From the NCBI GenBank assembly GCA_948467395.1, contig CAOKDX010000014.1, positions 1 to 64,000 on the forward strand: a DNA stretch of 64,000 nucleotides. The letters run 5' to 3'. The translations under genes and the position numbers were made by a program. The notes below the pieces were generated by a model. That model had not been told where the DNA came from and ran no database searches. It worked only from the letters and a program-made list of their open reading frames with translations. This stretch comes from an uncultured Clostridia bacterium. GTDB lineage: Bacteria > Bacillota > Clostridia > Lachnospirales > Lachnospiraceae. This document shows positions 31,312 to 39,944 of this stretch, piece after piece (within the stretch, counting starts at the first letter, position 1; the number at the start of each line of letters is the position of its first letter).

Positions 31312-32577
31312 ATGTCTTTAAATATTTTAAATAAAAACCGATTTCGGTACTGGCTGCACCGTCTCACCACCACAATGATGGATCAGACAATACTTTTTGA
31401 GGCAGAAAACGGGACAGCATACAGCGGACGTGTCCGCGCTTTATACGAAGCACTGCGGCAGGATAAACGGTATTACAATTTCTATTTTGTATGGTCCTTT
31501 GTCACTCCGGAGGATCACAAGGAGCTCCTTGACAACCGTCATACTATGCTGGTACGGCGAGACACGGCGGAATACATCAAATGCTATATCCGGGCGGCAT
31601 TCTGTCTCAGTGACGGCCCCATGCCGCGGTATCTCAAACCGTCCAGAAACCAGGTCCACGCCCTGCTCCAGTCCGATCCGGCCAGTGAGTCTCTGATCGA
31701 CAGTCTGTGTGAAACGCCTGCCCATCACCCGTCCCACTATGAGCATTTCATTCTTTTTATTAAGAAAATGCTGAACCGGGTCCGGCTTTTGTACCTGATG
31801 GGATGGTACAACTGCCTTGGTTTTTTCCGCTCCCGGGGAATGTTACACAATAACAACAGCCTGCGTCTGGAACGGCTGAAGGATCTGCATGCCGGGGAGA
31901 GGTGTTTTCTCATTGGCAACGGTCCCAGTCTCACCGGGGAGGATCTGAATCTTCTCCAGGAGGAATATACATTTGGGACAAACATGGTGTACAAAATATT
32001 TGACACCACGGAATGGCGGCCCACCTTTCACTGTATATCGGATACCATATATGCCTCCAAGCTGGGACTGGAGCTGTCCCAGAAGGTAAAGGCACCGCTC
32101 TTCACTACCGAGCGCACATACCGCAAAATGAAGCTTAAGCCCATCAATACCACCTATGTCCATACACTGCAGAGTGAGCGTTACCGTGTCCGCGGCAATA
32201 TCCAGGCTTACTGCATGGTGAAGGCTACCGTCCTGTCACTGGCTGCCGAGATCGCGTTCCATATGGGCTTTCGCGAGATTTATTTAATTGGCGTGGACTG
32301 TACAAATCCCCACATAAAGGGCGGACACTTTACAGAGAATTACACGACGAAAGAGGTGGCGGAGACAGATATTAACCGCATCAAGACACGCATGAAGAAA
32401 AAATCCCTGACCACAGAACAGATTGGAGAACATATCATTGACCGCTCCATGGAGGTATATTCCCTACTGGATGAATATGCACAGAAAAACGGTATAAAAA
32501 TCTACAATGCCACCCGGGGCGGCAACCTTGAGATCTTTCCCAGGGTCAGGCTGGAAGATGTATTAGCAGGGAGGTGA
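31312..32577 (+). CDS. Hybrid of TagF-like N-terminal segment and DUF115/MptE-like domain
   Basis: A 421-residue protein of two parts. Residues about 25-120 (ILFEAENGTAYSGRVRALYE, then CYIRAAFCLSDGPMPRYL) resemble the N-terminal region of CDP-glycerol/ribitol phosphotransferases, but the line stops just before their WHGTPLK site. Residues about 190-415 form a DUF115/MptE-like Rossmann domain: CFLIGNGPSL (199-207), TFGTNMVYKIF and IYLIGVDCTNP. DUF115 also occurs in the Maf flagellin transferases that use CMP-nonulosonic acids. With kdsB-like and kdsC-like genes directly downstream, a role in transfer of the CMP-sugar acid is plausible but unproven. AAAGGG precedes ATG; it is the first gene of the cassette. 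Confidence 0.72.
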   Translation: MSLNILNKNRFRYWLHRLTTTMMDQTILFEAENGTAYSGRVRALYEALRQDKRYYNFYFVWSFVTPEDHKELLDNRHTMLVRRDTAEYIKCYIRAAFCLSDGPMPRYLKPSRNQVHALLQSDPASESLIDSLCETPAHHPSHYEHFILFIKKMLNRVRLLYLMGWYNCLGFFRSRGMLHNNNSLRLERLKDLHAGERCFLIGNGPSLTGEDLNLLQEEYTFGTNMVYKIFDTTEWRPTFHCISDTIYASKLGLELSQKVKAPLFTTERTYRKMKLKPINTTYVHTLQSERYRVRGNIQAYCMVKATVLSLAAEIAFHMGFREIYLIGVDCTNPHIKGGHFTENYTTKEVAETDINRIKTRMKKKSLTTEQIGEHIIDRSMEVYSLLDEYAQKNGIKIYNATRGGNLEIFPRVRLEDVLAGR

Positions 32578-32581
32578 GACT

Positions 32582-33316
32582 ATGAAGATAATCGGTGTGA
32601 TTCCGGCCCGTTATAAATCCAGCCGCTTTCCGGGCAAGCCTTTGACGGATATATGCGGCAGGCCAATGATCTACTGGGTTTACCAGCAGGCAAAAAAAGT
32701 AAAGGAATTTCATGAGGTCTACGTTGCCACGGACGACGACAGGATCCGGGAGGCATGTGAGGCATTTGAAATGAAGGTCATTATGACCTCCGACTGTCAT
32801 CAGACCGGTTCAGACCGCGTGGCTGAGGTAGCAGAAAAAGTGGAAGGGGATCTTTTTGTCAATGTACAGGGAGATGAACCTGTGATCGATCCGGAGATGA
32901 TACGTCAGGTAATCTCGATATTTACAGAGGATGACTCCGTCTATTTCGGCAGCCTCAAGAAAGAGATTACCGATCCGGATGAGATTCAGGCTGCCAGCAC
33001 GGTTAAGGTCGTGACGGACGACAATGGGGACGCCATGTATTTTTCCCGGTCCGTCATCCCTTCCAACCGAAAGGACGGCAGACTGGCGAGAGTATTCCGC
33101 CATGTGGGAATCTATGCGTATAAAAAAGACTTTCTGCTGAAGTTCGCCGCCATGGAACAGACCGAGCTGGAGCTCGGCGAGGGGATCGAACCACTCCGCG
33201 CCATGCAGCGGGGCTATAAAATGCGGCTGAAGGAGACGGAATATACATCCATCGGCGTCGATCTGCCTGAGCATGTGGCGCAGGTGGAAAAAATAATAGG
33301 GAGAGAGAATAAATGA
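32582..33316 (+). CDS. kdsB: KdsB-like CMP-3-deoxy-ulosonate cytidylyltransferase
   Basis: A 244-residue enzyme that follows Kdo cytidylyltransferase closely: IIGVIPARYKSSRFPGKPL, VATDDDRI, HQTGSDRVAEV, LFVNVQGDEP and the end VDLPEHVAQVEKI. KdsB joins CMP from CTP to Kdo. NeuA-type enzymes lack NVQGDEP, so a Kdo-like acid is the better substrate guess. Kdo is a Gram-negative lipopolysaccharide sugar, so the gene is unexpected in this organism. GGGAGG ends the gene before it, and its own stop overlaps the next start (ATGA), so the operon is tightly coupled. Confidence 0.88.
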   Translation: MKIIGVIPARYKSSRFPGKPLTDICGRPMIYWVYQQAKKVKEFHEVYVATDDDRIREACEAFEMKVIMTSDCHQTGSDRVAEVAEKVEGDLFVNVQGDEPVIDPEMIRQVISIFTEDDSVYFGSLKKEITDPDEIQAASTVKVVTDDNGDAMYFSRSVIPSNRKDGRLARVFRHVGIYAYKKDFLLKFAAMEQTELELGEGIEPLRAMQRGYKMRLKETEYTSIGVDLPEHVAQVEKIIGRENK

Positions 33317-34938
33317 AACGAGTAAATATTTTGGACTGCACCCTGCGGGACGGAGGCTATCTGATCGACAGCCAGTTTGGGAATACCGCCATCAAGGGAA
33401 TTATCCAGGGACTTACCGAAAGCGGTATCGATGTGATCGAATGCGGTTTTCTGAAAGACGAACCACATCAGACGGGGAGCACGATCTTCAACAATGCCGC
33501 CCAGCTGCGGTCATTCCTCCCGGAGGACCGCAGACAGGCCTCCTATGTGTGTCTGGCGGATTACAGCCGGTACACCATCGACAACCTGGAGCCCTGCGAC
33601 GGAACTTCCATTGACGGCGTCCGGGCCTGTTTCTTTAAGAAGGAACGCCATGATGTCATGGATTTCTGCCGCAGCATCCGCGACAAGGGTTACCGGCTCT
33701 ATGTACAGCCGGTGGACATACTCGGCTACACGGATGGGGAACTGCTGGATCTGATTGAGAAGGTAAACGAACTGGAGCCATATGCATTTTCCATTGTAGA
33801 CACCTTCGGTTCCCTCTATAAAGAGGATCTGCAGCGGGTCTTTTATCTGATCCACCACAATCTCTACTCCGGCGCAAAGATCGGATTTCATTCCCACAAC
33901 AACCTGCAGATGTCCTTCGCCCTGTCACAGGAATTTATTGAAATGACGCAGGGACTCCGGGCCGTCGTGGTGGACAGCTCCATGGCAGGCATGGGACGGG
34001 GCGCCGGCAATACCAATACAGAACTGGTCATGCAGTATATGAACCGCAAATTCAACAGCGGTTATGATATCAACACCGTCCTGGATCTGATCGACAACTA
34101 TGTAGACGGTTTTCACAGCGAATATGAATGGGGGTACTCGATCCCGTACTTCCTGGCAGGCTCCTATAGCGCCCATGTCAACAACATCTCTTATCTTTCC
34201 ACCAAGGCTGGTATCGCCAGCCGGGATATCAATTATCTGCTGAACCGGATCGGTCCGGCCGCCCGTAAGCGGTACGACTACGATCTGCTGGAAAAAACCT
34301 ATCTGGAATACCAGAGGGCGATCTGTGATGACTCCGATGCGCTGAATACACTGAAAACCGCTTTTGCCGGAAAGGATATCCTGATACTCCTGCCCGGCCA
34401 CTCCGTCACCACCCACACAGAGGAGATTATCCGGTTCTGCGACAAACATACCCCCGTGGTCATCAGCGTCAATCTGCTGTCCCAGGATTATCCCATCGAC
34501 TATGTATATTTCAGCAATAAAAACCGATACCGCTACTGGAAAAATGCATCGCATTTTTCTGAATATAAAAAGATCGTCACCTCCAATGTCACCACCGCTC
34601 CGGAACGGGATCAGCTGATCATTGATTTCACCCGTCTCATCAAATGCGGGTGGGAACAGCTGGACAACTCCGGCATCCTGCTCCTCCGCCTTCTGGATCT
34701 TCTGGATGTGAAAAGCATCGCCATTGCCGGCTTTGACGGCTACAGCCGCCATTCCGGCAGCCGGAACTACATGCAGAAATCCATGGAGAAGACAAGAAAT
34801 ACTATAAACGCGGAAGAAGCCAACAAAGAGATCCGAAACATGCTGGAGGATTATATGAACACCAGAATTTCGGACTGCCCTGTTTCATTTATCACACCTT
34901 CCTACTTTGAATCAGTTATAAAAGGAGAGCAGCTATGA
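33313..34938 (+). CDS. DRE-TIM (HMGL-like) aldolase fused to a second, DUF115-like domain
   Basis: A 541-residue protein. Residues 1-about 300 form a DRE-TIM aldolase barrel: NILDCTLRDGGYL (5-17), metal His193 and His195 in GFHSHNN, and GMGRGAGNTNTE (226-237). This family includes 4-hydroxy-2-oxovalerate aldolase, which joins or splits pyruvate and an aldehyde. Residues about 350-541 (DILILLPGHSV, DYVYFSNKNRY, SIAIAGFDGYS) look like a distant DUF115-type fold. Set between KdsB- and KdsC-like genes, it stands where KdsA (phosphoenolpyruvate-dependent) would be expected. Inference: it makes a 2-keto-3-deoxy sugar acid, or its phosphate, by pyruvate aldol addition. It overlaps both neighbours by 4 bp. 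Confidence 0.82.
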   Translation: MKRVNILDCTLRDGGYLIDSQFGNTAIKGIIQGLTESGIDVIECGFLKDEPHQTGSTIFNNAAQLRSFLPEDRRQASYVCLADYSRYTIDNLEPCDGTSIDGVRACFFKKERHDVMDFCRSIRDKGYRLYVQPVDILGYTDGELLDLIEKVNELEPYAFSIVDTFGSLYKEDLQRVFYLIHHNLYSGAKIGFHSHNNLQMSFALSQEFIEMTQGLRAVVVDSSMAGMGRGAGNTNTELVMQYMNRKFNSGYDINTVLDLIDNYVDGFHSEYEWGYSIPYFLAGSYSAHVNNISYLSTKAGIASRDINYLLNRIGPAARKRYDYDLLEKTYLEYQRAICDDSDALNTLKTAFAGKDILILLPGHSVTTHTEEIIRFCDKHTPVVISVNLLSQDYPIDYVYFSNKNRYRYWKNASHFSEYKKIVTSNVTTAPERDQLIIDFTRLIKCGWEQLDNSGILLLRLLDLLDVKSIAIAGFDGYSRHSGSRNYMQKSMEKTRNTINAEEANKEIRNMLEDYMNTRISDCPVSFITPSYFESVIKGEQL

Positions 34939-35441
34939 CAAAAGACCTGACAAAGATCCGTCTCTTCGCCATGGATGTGGACGGTACACTGACAGATGGA
35001 AAGATTTATATGGGTGAGACAGGAGAATTGATGAAATCCTTTGATGTAAAAGACGGTCTGGGCATCAAGCTCCTGATGACCCAGGGTATCGTCCCCGCCA
35101 TCATCACCGGAAGACGCTCGCAGATCGTGGAAAACCGCTGCCGTGAGATTGGTATCACGGAAATCCACCAGGGAGTGAAGCAAAAGAACGCCGTTTTCTG
35201 TGAACTGATGGAAAAATATCAGCTTCGGCGGGAAGAAACGGCCTATATCGGAGATGATATCAATGACCTGGGTGCCATGAAAGAAGCAGGCATTACGTTT
35301 GCCCCGGCAGACTGCGCCCATCAGCTCCTGCCCTATATTGATATCCGTCTCACCAGAAAAGCCGGCGACTGTCCTGTCCGGGAAGCCATCGACCTGATAT
35401 TGGACGGGCGGTATCAGGCGGAGGAGTTTACTGCCCTGTAG
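34935..35441 (+). CDS. kdsC: KdsC-like HAD phosphatase
   Basis: A 168-residue cap-less HAD enzyme with MDVDGTLTDGKIY (motif I, nucleophile Asp), ITGRRS (motif II), and GDDINDLGAM (motif IV), matching Kdo-8-phosphate phosphatase in length and order. The family hydrolyses the phosphate of 3-deoxy-ulosonate phosphates and acts as a tetramer. GGAGAG precedes the ATG, which overlaps the aldolase stop by 4 bp. It ends the four-gene cassette, followed by a long palindrome. The substrate is inferred from neighbours. Confidence 0.87.
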   Translation: MTKDLTKIRLFAMDVDGTLTDGKIYMGETGELMKSFDVKDGLGIKLLMTQGIVPAIITGRRSQIVENRCREIGITEIHQGVKQKNAVFCELMEKYQLRREETAYIGDDINDLGAMKEAGITFAPADCAHQLLPYIDIRLTRKAGDCPVREAIDLILDGRYQAEEFTAL

Positions 35442-35509: not shown

Positions 35510-36748
35510 TCAGAAAATTTTACCGTGATAGGCGGTATCCTCCCGCACATCCATCGTTATATTATCCACAAACGTATCTTTCACATGGGAATCCACGATC
35601 CGCTGCAGTCCGTCTATCCTGTGATGCAGGGCGGCGCACAGACGGTCCCGTCTCTCTGCGTCGATAAACAGGGAATCGCGTATGATCTCCCGGAATTCCT
35701 CGTCCACTCCACGAAGCCTTGACAGTTCAAGCCAGTCATACGAGTTCACAAGCTTAATCTGCTCTTCATGAAATTTCTTAAAGGGCTTACAATGAATCCG
35801 CGCCAGACTGCCTATCATGGCTGTCGGCGTGGACCACCAGAAGGAGGTTCCCGTGTCAAAAACCGGAGAAGCACCCAGGTACTCCAGTGTCCTGGCATCC
35901 CGCACCACGCCAAAATTATTCTGGTGCCGGTCCTCATTCAGGATCAGATAATCCAGAACGATCATCTGATCCAGGGAGTTTCTGATCTGCATCATGCCGT
36001 TCTTCTCACAGCAATCCACATAGTGCTGGTATACCGATGTATGATTTTCCCTCTTCTTCGTCCGCATCAGATACCACGCCGTCACAAACTCCGTTTCAGC
36101 GGTAATAAAATCTTCACATATACTGTAGGGATAACCCTTCTCATGGCAGAGTCCGTACACTGCATGGGGAATCCCAAGCCTCTCCATCATGCAGGTGGCC
36201 AGCACCTCATTGTACGGCTCCTGCTGGGCAAGACCGCTCCCCCCCTTGATCAGGCACCGCCTGCCATCGACGATCTTCCACTTCTTCCTAAGCCAGCCGT
36301 CGGATGTATTATCCGGTGAGACCAAACTAAAAGACTGTCCCGAAACCGGTTCTCCCAAAAGAACATTGCCCACGTCCTCCGAAAAAGGATTGTCAAAAAA
36401 ATTTACCTCTTTCCATTTAAGACCGGAACCCTCCGGACAAAGCCAGTACTGATCCGACAGGCTGAGCCCGTAACACCTCTCCGCCAGAAGCTCCGTTGTG
36501 GCAATTCCCAGTTCCTCCAGCTTGCCATAAAAGGCATCCCGGCTGGCCGGGATCCCTCTGCCCCGCCACCACTCATTGAATCCGGCTCTGTCCGGCCTGC
36601 CCTTCTTTACCGCAACGCCCACTGGAATATGAGCCACATCATACACATCGCCTATCTTTTGTATCCAGCCGTTTGCCGGATTAAGTACAATCTGTGCCAC
36701 AGGAATCTCCCTGTGCATAAGTGTATATCCCTGTCCCGTCCTCTTCAC
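35510..36748 (-). CDS. HipA-like serine/threonine kinase without HipB partner
   Basis: A 412-residue protein with the HipA-fold kinase core: an ATP-site Lys in CLIKGGSG (about 195), catalytic loop LNEDRHQNNFG, and metal motif PVFDTGTSFW. The N-terminal 140 residues are of the type found in Firmicutes HipA-like single genes rather than in the two-gene E. coli system. The start is GTG 36746-36748 beside GAGGAGG, overlapping the glycosyltransferase by 68 bp; ATG 36718 is an alternative. No HipB-like DNA-binding antitoxin is adjacent. A protein kinase of a translation or other target is likely, but whether it is toxic or linked to glycan synthesis is unknown. Confidence 0.8.
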   Translation of the reverse strand: MKRTGQGYTLMHREIPVAQIVLNPANGWIQKIGDVYDVAHIPVGVAVKKGRPDRAGFNEWWRGRGIPASRDAFYGKLEELGIATTELLAERCYGLSLSDQYWLCPEGSGLKWKEVNFFDNPFSEDVGNVLLGEPVSGQSFSLVSPDNTSDGWLRKKWKIVDGRRCLIKGGSGLAQQEPYNEVLATCMMERLGIPHAVYGLCHEKGYPYSICEDFITAETEFVTAWYLMRTKKRENHTSVYQHYVDCCEKNGMMQIRNSLDQMIVLDYLILNEDRHQNNFGVVRDARTLEYLGASPVFDTGTSFWWSTPTAMIGSLARIHCKPFKKFHEEQIKLVNSYDWLELSRLRGVDEEFREIIRDSLFIDAERRDRLCAALHHRIDGLQRIVDSHVKDTFVDNITMDVREDTAYHGKIF

Positions 36749-38171: not shown

Positions 38172-39197
38172 CTATTTCTCCCAAAGCATAATTGTCTTTC
38201 CAAATGATTTCTGTATATCCATCTCGAATGCTTTCTTCATATCGGCAATGGAACGGATCGGAACAACAGCGCCCACAATATTGGAAAGGAAATTTACAAT
38301 CTCCGGATGCTCCCGATAGAGGGAAACCGTCCTTTCAAAATCTATTCTGCCACTGCGGCTGCTGCCAAAAAGCCGGAGTCCCTTCTCCAGAATCATCCTT
38401 GTATTAATGGGCACCGGATACTCCGACACACCGAGAATGGAAATCGTCCCCTCCGGATTGATAAAATCAATAATCTGATCAATGGCCTTTCCGGAACCAG
38501 CCCCTCCCACACACTCAAAGGCATGATCCAGATGCAGATCCTCCGGGATATGTTCCACCGTGTACGTCCCGTCTGCAAAAGTAAAATCTGACAGCTTATC
38601 CCTGTTCATGCCAAAAATAAAGAGCTTTGTCTCCGGGAACATATATTTAAAGAACAGCGCCGTAATATAGCCGAGGTTCCCATCTCCCCATATTCCCACC
38701 CGATTCCGTCTGCCGTGTGCCATACGGTCAAAACGGGACAGGGCATGCACGCTTACACTGACTATCTCGGTAAAGGCGGCAACCGTCCTGTCAATGCCCT
38801 CCGGCATCCGCACAAGTCTGTCCGGACGAATCTTCACATACTCCTGCATAAAGCCGTCAAATCCGCTGGCCCGGAAACGGCTGGAACGAAGATAGTTCTC
38901 CGCTATCACCTCATCCTCCTCTATCGGAGTATTCGGTATCATCACCACCTGCTCCCCGGATTTGAATGTCCCGGAAGGATCCATGACAACAGTGCCCACC
39001 GCTTCATGAATCAGTGCCATGGGCAGCTTCTGTTTCAACACCTTCGCCTCCCTCAGTCCCTGATAATAACGCTGGTCCGCATTACAGATTGAAAGATGGG
39101 TAGGACGCACAAGGACATCCCGGTCCAGTAAACTTATATTCTGATAAGTGACCTCAAATTTTCTTGGCGCCACTAACTGATAAACCGTATTCAGCAT
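38172..39197 (-). CDS. tarJ: Ribulose-5-phosphate reductase TarJ
   Basis: A 341-residue zinc-type medium-chain reductase. It shows the TarJ sequence pattern YQLVAPRKFEVTYQN, SICNADQRYYQG, PMALIHEAVG, GIWGDGNLGYI (nucleotide-binding) and LRLFGSSRSG. TarJ reduces D-ribulose-5-phosphate to D-ribitol-5-phosphate with NADPH, feeding TarI. The pair supplies CDP-ribitol for ribitol-phosphate wall polymers. It lies 36 bp after tarI with GAGAGG before ATG. Length and motifs are complete. Confidence 0.93.
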   Translation of the reverse strand: MLNTVYQLVAPRKFEVTYQNISLLDRDVLVRPTHLSICNADQRYYQGLREAKVLKQKLPMALIHEAVGTVVMDPSGTFKSGEQVVMIPNTPIEEDEVIAENYLRSSRFRASGFDGFMQEYVKIRPDRLVRMPEGIDRTVAAFTEIVSVSVHALSRFDRMAHGRRNRVGIWGDGNLGYITALFFKYMFPETKLFIFGMNRDKLSDFTFADGTYTVEHIPEDLHLDHAFECVGGAGSGKAIDQIIDFINPEGTISILGVSEYPVPINTRMILEKGLRLFGSSRSGRIDFERTVSLYREHPEIVNFLSNIVGAVVPIRSIADMKKAFEMDIQKSFGKTIMLWEK

Positions 39198-39233: not shown

Positions 39234-39944
39234 TCACAGAGAATCCTCCTGAATCAATGTCTCGGCAACACGGAGATCATAGGGATATGTGATTTTAATA
39301 TTGGAGACCTCCCCTTCCACCAGGTATACCTTCTCACCCTTCATTACAAAAATCTTCGCCGCATCGGTCAGGATCCGCTTCTCCTCCTCGGTCAGGCCCT
39401 CATACAATTCCTTCAGCTTCTTCAGCCGGAATGTCTGGGGCGTCTGTCCCTGATACATCTTACTCCGTTCCGGAACATCGGATATAACTATATTATCCTC
39501 ACTTTGCACGATCGTATCCGTCGCCGGGACGGCGGTATCACAGGCGCCGTATTTCCTGGCATACTCGATATTCTCCTCGATGATCCGATGCGTTACAAAA
39601 GGGCGTACCGAATCATGCGTCACAATGATCGTCTCATCATCCACCGCATACTCGCTCTCAATCTGCCGGATCGCATTCATAATGGTCTCATTTCTCGTGT
39701 CCCCTCCCTGGATTACCGAAATCCGTGATGTCTCGCCGATAAATCTGCGGATAAGATTCTTTGTGTGATGGATCCACTGCTCCGGACACAGCACATACAG
39801 CTTCTCAAATTTATCATTGATATAAAATTTCTCAATTGTATGGATTATAATAGGCTTGTCCGCAATATTCAGATACTGCTTTGGCTTCTCAATATTTCCC
39901 ATACGGCTGCCCACACCGCCTGCCAGTAATACTCCAAAAACCAT
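39234..39944 (-). CDS. tarI: D-ribitol-5-phosphate cytidylyltransferase TarI
   Basis: A 236-residue IspD-like enzyme with GVLLAGGVGSRMG (CTP loop), KPKQYLNI, THDSVRPF, MYQGQTPQTF and the end VSNIKITYPYDL. The details fit TarI rather than IspD, and the neighbouring tarJ settles it. It makes CDP-ribitol from CTP and ribitol-5-phosphate. AAAGGAG stands six bases before ATG. Upstream in the same run is a GtrA gene, 66 bp away. Confidence 0.93.
   Translation of the reverse strand: MVFGVLLAGGVGSRMGNIEKPKQYLNIADKPIIIHTIEKFYINDKFEKLYVLCPEQWIHHTKNLIRRFIGETSRISVIQGGDTRNETIMNAIRQIESEYAVDDETIIVTHDSVRPFVTHRIIEENIEYARKYGACDTAVPATDTIVQSEDNIVISDVPERSKMYQGQTPQTFRLKKLKELYEGLTEEEKRILTDAAKIFVMKGEKVYLVEGEVSNIKITYPYDLRVAETLIQEDSL

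Follow-up and report, generated by a model that had tools for sequence, protein, structure and literature searches.

The window analyzed here, a stretch of 64,000 nucleotides from contig CAOKDX010000014.1 (assembly GCA_948467395.1) of an uncultured Clostridia bacterium of the family Lachnospiraceae, carries a four-gene cassette that probably supplies a surface glycan with an activated 3-deoxy-2-ulosonic acid, made with neither KdsA nor NeuB. According to the list of open reading frames (ORFs), all four genes lie on the + strand at positions 31312–35441. They encode a DUF115 hybrid (gene 1), a KdsB-like cytidylyltransferase (gene 2), a two-domain pyruvate aldolase (gene 3, product P3), and a KdsC-like phosphatase (gene 4). 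The family assignments of a preliminary description of the sequence were upheld by Pfam and NCBIfam profile matches, to which the present analysis adds the second domain of P3 and the loss of most of the glycerophosphotransferase domain from gene 1. The tight coupling given in that description is present: genes 2 and 3 overlap by 4 bp (33313–33316), as do genes 3 and 4 (34935–34938), and a 4-bp gap separates genes 1 and 2. The cassette appears to give gut bacteria a so far undescribed means of producing and activating an uncommon acidic sugar for the cell surface. The route put forward in the preliminary description, which relies on an aldolase instead of KdsA and leads to a cytidine monophosphate (CMP)-activated 3-deoxy-ulosonic acid, remains the best reading; the underlying observation turned out stronger than stated and the interpretation right in kind, but the taxonomic scope was too narrow and the name 3-deoxy-D-manno-octulosonic acid (Kdo) is probably wrong.

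In the proposed pathway, the aldolase domain of P3 would form a metal-bound pyruvate enolate, which would add to a phosphorylated aldose and yield a 4-hydroxy-2-oxo acid phosphate, that is, a 3-deoxy-2-ulosonate phosphate; we infer this synthetic direction. Because no gene of the cassette can be assigned to making the aldehyde, it is likely a common aldose phosphate; for an eight-carbon product, ribose 5-phosphate would be among the candidates. The KdsC-like phosphatase would remove the phosphate and pull the equilibrium, the KdsB-like enzyme would turn the free ulosonic acid into CMP-ulosonate, and a CMP-ulosonate transferase would attach the sugar to the surface glycan. The last role may fall to the MptE-like domain of gene 1 in the window and to polysialyltransferase-like enzymes elsewhere.

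P3 (33313–34938, + strand; 541 amino acids; Pfam HMGL-like) begins with a predicted DmpG-like metal-dependent aldolase domain (residues 1–310; 33313–34242). By sequence and by fold, its best solved match is 3dxi, the putative Bacteroides aldolase BVU_2661, whose entry is titled "N-terminal domain," followed by 4-hydroxy-2-oxovalerate aldolases; the nearest functionally named solved relatives are of the DmpG type. Arg-12, Asp-13, His-193, and His-195 are invariant in 65 of 65 P3 sequences. In the alignment to 1nvm they occupy the positions of the Arg, the Asp, and the HxH motif, which we take to bind the metal and the enolate of pyruvate in DmpG. The genome of the window also encodes a single-domain relative of P3 (contig C2; locus L101, 5550–6572), which by eye lies beside purine-synthesis genes and of which many genomes of the family contain similar copies.

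The second domain of P3 (residues ∼315–541; 34255–34935 for residues 315–541) is kept in both genomic contexts described below. Predicted alone, it reached a mean predicted local distance difference test score (pLDDT) of 91.4, and a comparison with the PDB gave four fold matches at E ≤ 0.001, namely three chains of SteA (9hmz, E = 2.4e-4) and the archaeal pterin diphosphokinase MptE (8sd5, E = 7.6e-4), with a probability of 1.00 and template modeling (TM) scores of only 0.43–0.48. Phage models named as MptE-like also match (TM 0.40–0.59), so that residues 315–541 are predicted to assume an MptE-like fold, at a modest TM score. The domain in the window has no Pfam match, and PF01973 reaches 15.5 against 34.6 bits in the P3 of locus L175. 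Comparison with the MptE-like domain of gene 1 showed colinearity by eye and a non-significant hhalign probability of 4%. An initial reading by eye as a GT42 sialyltransferase was dropped in favor of MptE and SteA after the fold searches. Matches to GT-D and Cucumopine_C, as well as a Lyx_isomer match in the P3 of Helicobacter (22.2 versus 20.8 bits), were treated as chance. Because the domain is kept beside both cytidylyltransferases and thiamine diphosphate (ThDP) enzymes, its function may lie with the aldolase step or its partners and not in CMP-sugar transfer.

Gene 2 (32582–33316, + strand; 244 amino acids; Pfam CTP_transf_3) scores above the cut-off of the kdsB equivalog model TIGR00466 (197.1 versus 155.2 bits), passes three looser KdsB subfamily models, and stays under the strict model NF003948 (184.5 versus 281 bits). 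Its best solved relative is KpsU. Lys-19, Asp-98 (in the motif QGDEP), and Asp-227 (in GVD) are invariant in 38 KdsBs and correspond, by motif rather than by alignment, to Lys-19, Asp-95, and Asp-219 of Aquifex KdsB (PMC3149649). Eight further KdsBs linked to P3 were scanned; NF003952 was passed by all eight and TIGR00466 by four. These features suggest that gene 2 encodes a KdsB-like CTP:3-deoxy-ulosonate cytidylyltransferase of a P3-linked lineage. Gene 4 (34935–35441, + strand; 168 amino acids; Pfam HAD) passes the KdsC-type phosphatase model TIGR01670 (165.4 versus 106.95 bits) and lies under the strict KdsC model NF007019 (161.4 versus 208 bits). In locus L035, the frame that follows P3 (5897–6529) encodes the C-terminal part of a KdsC-type phosphatase and then a YhcH/N-acetylneuraminate-anomerase-type domain, a combination that fits ulosonic acid handling.

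The linkage of P3 to a cytidylyltransferase recurs in many genomes. Among 299 genomes of the same family, 128 contained some match to P3. By our own count these held 68 near-full-length P3 places, of which 62, the window included, were analyzed and six left out; the remaining matches are mainly a single-domain paralogue of ∼330 residues, of which the genome of the window also has one copy. On the same strand and within five genes of P3, a KdsB/NeuA-type cytidylyltransferase was found in 32 of the 62 loci, a ThDP enzyme in 26, both in one, and neither in three. From at least 581 loci in a scan of named genomes, the best 80 were retained, a choice that favors near relatives of the window; 78 were usable, as L129 and L162 showed no P3 ORF over 300 bits in our own ORF finder and were dropped. 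Within six genes, 54 of the 78 have a KdsB/NeuA-type cytidylyltransferase, 17 a ThDP enzyme, one both, and six neither. The cytidylyltransferase lies directly upstream of P3 in 51 of the 78 loci (KdsB-like in 24, NeuA/PseF-like in 27), and in 31 of these 51 a phosphatase follows within three genes downstream. As a control, we inspected the surroundings of the single-domain paralogue at 20 loci and at the copy in the genome of the window, which are 21 of many such loci, each 7.7–13.5 kb long with flanks shorter than those of most named P3 loci. None of the 21 has a cytidylyltransferase, KdsC, or ThDP gene, and two have a PGP-like HAD gene. The position directly upstream in 51 of 78 loci, against 0 of 21, shows that the linkage is not due to chance.

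Neighbor labels in these counts come from profiles built on the clusters of the sample itself, with only representatives checked against Pfam and NCBIfam. The NeuA-like representatives of L034 and L035 are supported by Pfam and that of L150 by PseF, under the cut-off; the representative of L126 gave no NCBIfam match at 1e-15. Most of the P3 loci seen are from Clostridia, and P3 was also seen in Paenibacillus records; its cultured carriers include Proteocatella sphenisci DSM 23131 (locus L172) and Paenibacillus sp. 32352 (locus L185). The arrangement of cytidylyltransferase, aldolase, and phosphatase was first noted in a Gram-positive organism but is not confined to Gram-positives; the cassette is also found in genomes of Helicobacter, Prevotella, Bacteroidales, Fretibacterium, and Gastranaerophilales.

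We examined KdsA and its partners in 34 sampled genomes, selected because a cytidylyltransferase or KdsC lies close to P3 (G074 was left out); 27 of them reach a completeness of 90% or more at a contamination of 5% or less. The genome of the window (97.7% complete) has no match to the KdsA model TIGR01362 at E = 0.001; its only DAHP_synth_1 match passes TIGR00034 and was set aside as a 3-deoxy-D-arabino-heptulosonate 7-phosphate (DAHP) synthase. The absence of KdsA, first noted beside the cassette, hence holds genome-wide. Only one of the 34 genomes (G052) has a KdsA over the cut-off, on a contig different from those of its P3s. The arabinose-5-phosphate isomerase KdsD/KpsF (TIGR00393) is over the cut-off in none of the 34; the genome of the window reaches 22.2 versus 203.7 bits and so has no source of arabinose 5-phosphate over the cut-off. 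Short relatives at ∼100 bits, which match the first 153 positions only, occur in two of the 34 (G242 and G283), where they may represent a minimal arabinose-5-phosphate isomerase.

KdsA is not always missing from genomes that bear the cassette. It is present in five of 15 named genomes (Helicobacter, Prevotella, Bacteroidales, Fretibacterium, and Gastranaerophilales, with two copies in G307, the Bacteroidales genome) and not over the cut-off in the other ten, among them a Treponema record with a ThDP-type P3 (G310). However, all five KdsA-positive genomes possess two KdsB-type genes, one adjoining P3 and the other without P3 in the stretch examined. KdsA is therefore not tied to the cassette.

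The KdsBs linked to P3 form a lineage of their own. Our tree held 38 sequences, with only seven on the KdsA side; the Gram-positive KdsBs sampled are all P3-linked. The 31 P3-linked KdsBs split from the other seven with a support of 100/97 and in 100% of 200 bootstrap trees. The KdsA side consists of six KdsBs from KdsA-bearing genomes (E. coli included) and KpsU, and the P3-linked side comprises enzymes from Bacillota and Bacteroidota (according to record titles) together with the second copies from the Helicobacter, Fretibacterium, and Gastranaerophilales genomes. Ten alignment columns are kept in at least six of the seven KdsA-side enzymes but in no more than one-quarter of the P3-linked ones; three of them lie in the CTP half and seven past residue 100, in the Kdo-binding half (PMC3149649). 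Arg-164 and Gln-211 (E. coli numbering) are invariant in all seven KdsA-side enzymes. On the P3-linked side, Arg-164 is kept in one of 31 and replaced by lysine, a mild change, in 24 of 31, and Gln-211 is absent from at least 28 of 31; the protein of the window has Lys-164 and Pro-204 at these positions. The catalytic Lys-19 has not changed, nor have the aspartates of QGDEP and GVD. The residue changes fit a changed sugar, and the product of the cassette is probably Kdo-like but not Kdo.

The second context of P3 is exemplified by locus L068, a representative that combines P3, a HAD phosphatase, an acetolactate-synthase-like ThDP enzyme (three TPP-enzyme Pfam domains), and an NAD epimerase with a glucose-1-phosphate cytidylyltransferase, a CDP-glucose 4,6-dehydratase, and RfbH, the last three over their cut-offs (TIGR02623, TIGR02622, and NF011936). 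In this one representative, the genes expected of a YerE-type pathway, a ThDP enzyme and CDP-dideoxyhexose genes, stand together. Genes of the RfbF/RfbG/RfbH type are found in eight of 18 named ThDP loci (the 17 and the one with both enzymes) and in 15 of 27 sampled ThDP loci. YerE couples acetaldehyde derived from pyruvate to CDP-3,6-dideoxy-4-keto-D-glucose, and ErwE instead uses, with the same CDP-sugar, hydroxy-functionalized 2-oxo acids such as 4-hydroxy-2-oxopentanoate, according to a 2025 review (PMC12247030). We infer that a pyruvate aldolase could be a natural source of such hydroxylated 2-oxo acids, and the oxo acid made by P3 in ThDP-type loci would feed a branching enzyme like YerE or ErwE. 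In cytidylyltransferase-type loci, an acid of this kind, once dephosphorylated, would be the substrate that a KdsB- or NeuA-like enzyme activates. A branched sugar of Eubacterium saburreum with a 2-deoxy side chain would suit the ThDP loci, but no paper on it turned up in the open-access literature searched, and we give it no weight. The P3 tree requires at least four changes of context and at least seven between KdsB and NeuA as the type of cytidylyltransferase, and the downstream modules served by this one aldolase family thus appear to be interchangeable. More tentatively, and with the odds slightly against it, P3 could carry out a chain-extension step shared within bacterial surface-sugar synthesis, with a product that may go interchangeably in either of two directions. 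Activation with CMP would lead to a new class of ulosonic acids independent of KdsA and NeuB, and decarboxylative coupling to a CDP-4-keto-dideoxyhexose by a ThDP enzyme would lead to long-branched sugars.

Gene 1 (31312–32577, + strand; 421 amino acids) contains Pfam matches to Glyphos_transf (residues 21–117) and to an intact MptE-like/DUF115 domain (residues 178–331). It keeps approximately the first 100 of the 367 profile positions of the CDP-glycerol glycerophosphotransferase domain; residues 6–117 match TagF 334–440 and nothing else of TagF. In close relatives with the same gene order (L108, L109, L110, and L111), the homologue has 686–706 residues and the full glycerophosphotransferase core. 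This core is missing in the window, L032, and L107, and the MptE-like half is strongly conserved. As judged from its sequence, gene 1 joins what remains of a CDP-glycerol glycerophosphotransferase domain to an MptE-like/DUF115 domain; it lacks a complete TagF-type catalytic domain, and glycerol phosphate transfer by its product is therefore unlikely. Maf proteins have a thiamine pyrophosphokinase (TPK)-like domain and were proposed to transfer CMP-activated pseudaminic acid to flagellin (PMC3426422), which makes the MptE-like domain of gene 1 a plausible candidate for an ulosonate transferase.

The preliminary description had inferred transfer by the DUF115 protein. This role is putative: such a gene is recognized in only 14 of 80 named loci (with a narrow profile), and polysialyltransferase-like genes offer an alternative. 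The latter occur in 13 of 26 KdsB-type, five of 29 NeuA-type, none of 17 ThDP-type, and one of six other loci, and two of three representatives pass Pfam PF07388. In several loci, the polysialyltransferase-like genes are accompanied by proteins of ∼670–900 amino acids (L046, 12799–14814; L049, 8866–11556; and relatives). The two that were scanned have no Pfam family over the cut-off, and proteins of this type are possibly new glycosyltransferases.

Ordinary Kdo synthesis would require that P3 adds pyruvate to D-arabinose 5-phosphate, giving Kdo 8-phosphate, on which KdsC and KdsB then act as usual. The passing of TIGR00466 by gene 2, its closeness to KpsU, and the passing of TIGR01670 by gene 4 all agree with this, and yet we consider it improbable: KdsD/KpsF is under the cut-off in all 34 genomes, the P3-linked KdsBs have largely lost Arg-164 and Gln-211, and the five Gram-negatives keep KdsA and another KdsB beside their P3–KdsB pair. 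A source in NeuB bears on the genome of the window itself, which encodes NeuB four times, on contigs C19, C10, and C21. The ulosonic acid would then come from these enzymes, and P3 would cleave an unwanted oxo acid or act on a CDP- or CMP-linked sugar, in line with the reversibility of HMGL-like aldolases. No NeuB lies on the contig of the window, however, and the same three contigs carry the three other cytidylyltransferases of the genome that are over the cut-off, NeuA-type genes of their own. Moreover, P3 cassettes recur in KdsA-free genomes (33 of 34, a count of KdsA alone), and we regard this source as quite unlikely. We read the NeuB contigs as putative separate nonulosonic acid loci; given the four NeuBs and three additional cytidylyltransferases, the repertoire of the organism probably extends to nonulosonic acids other than the product of the cassette.

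P3 might also be a bifunctional synthase–transferase whose C-terminal, MptE-like domain transfers the ulosonate from its CMP form, in the manner proposed for Maf. The predicted fold is in keeping with this, as are the TPK-like domain of Maf and the structural similarity of the sialyltransferase CstII to thiamine pyrophosphokinase (PMC3426422). Nevertheless, the motif residues of the domain are kept in the ThDP-type loci L127, L135, and L141, which have no KdsB/NeuA-type gene, the hhalign comparison with gene 1 was not significant, and CstII is not among the best 50 of 1250 fold matches, all of which leaves a bifunctional P3 quite unlikely.

Several observations weigh against the synthetic pathway that we favor, in which P3 makes an ulosonate phosphate for dephosphorylation and CMP activation. 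The position of the catalytic histidine of DmpG (presumably His-21, after LRDG) is Tyr-16 in the P3 of the window and also a tyrosine in 3dxi, and P3 scores under the cut-offs of curated 4-hydroxy-2-oxovalerate aldolase models (77.5 versus 286 and 90.7 versus 229 bits); its reaction could therefore differ. We know of no member of the P3 family with measured activity. The MptE-like domain has no place in the proposed scheme, nor is any gene of the cassette known to supply the aldehyde, and the TIGR00466 score of gene 2 is compatible with Kdo itself. Finally, with narrow profiles, no phosphatase was recognized within three genes in 20 of the 51 loci where P3 directly follows a cytidylyltransferase gene, and one was recognized in only three of 18 named ThDP loci versus 17 of 27 sampled ones; the missing phosphatases in ThDP loci weaken the case for a single phosphorylated intermediate throughout.

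The proposed pathway resembles the CMP-Kdo pathway of lipopolysaccharide and group 2 capsules (KdsD-KdsA-KdsC-KdsB) in that a KdsC-like phosphatase would act before a KdsB-like enzyme activates the 3-deoxy-2-ulosonic acid. It differs in that the carbon–carbon bond would be formed by a pyruvate aldolase rather than by the phosphoenolpyruvate (PEP)-dependent KdsA, in the lack of a KdsD over the cut-off, in its separate KdsB lineage, and in its mainly clostridial distribution. P3 shares the fold, the metal and enolate residues, and the expected pyruvate chemistry with DmpG/BphI aldolases and BVU_2661; unlike the DmpG/BphI enzymes, it has the extra MptE-like domain, a tyrosine for the catalytic histidine (in the window), and a glycan gene context. 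With the NeuB–NeuA pathways, the cassette would share the CMP-ulosonate end product, and 27 of the 51 cytidylyltransferases directly upstream of P3 are NeuA/PseF-like; an aldolase stands in place of the PEP-dependent synthase. The second context of P3 recalls the YerE/ErwE branched sugars yersiniose and erwiniose through its YerE-like ThDP enzyme and, in part of the loci, RfbF/RfbG/RfbH-type genes, whereas the cassette of the window has neither ThDP nor CDP-dideoxyhexose genes. Maf and GT42-type CMP-ulosonate transferases would be related to gene 1 and to the C-terminal domain of P3 by fold only.

To our knowledge, the CMP-ulosonic acid routes to Kdo and to sialic, legionaminic, and pseudaminic acid all form the carbon–carbon bond with a PEP-dependent synthase, and we recognized no description of an aldolase-based route among the open-access papers that our searches listed. 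If true, a pyruvate-aldolase route in many gut Clostridia would add a second chemistry to CMP-ulosonic acid synthesis, explain "KdsB" annotations in Gram-positives, suggest that gut commensals carry unusual acidic sugars on their surface, and connect, by way of a single enzyme, ulosonic acids to branched sugars of the YerE type.

In our reading of the ORF list, the cassette lies within a long glycan locus, in which most other genes are on the − strand. Scans for promoter-like sites (seven versus 6.1 expected) and terminator-like sites (six versus 4.0) were uninformative. Directly after the cassette follows a HipA-like kinase gene (35510–36748, − strand; Pfam HipA_C, 31.6 versus 30.5 bits), which is missing from the corresponding place in locus L032. 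Close to the cassette, 39234–39944 (− strand) encodes a D-ribitol-5-phosphate cytidylyltransferase (NF001183, 366 versus 166 bits), and the adjoining gene at 38172–39197 (− strand) encodes a dehydrogenase with NCBIfam matches under the cut-off only, which we take from its position to be TarJ. The two genes are likely a TarI/TarJ pair for CDP-ribitol.

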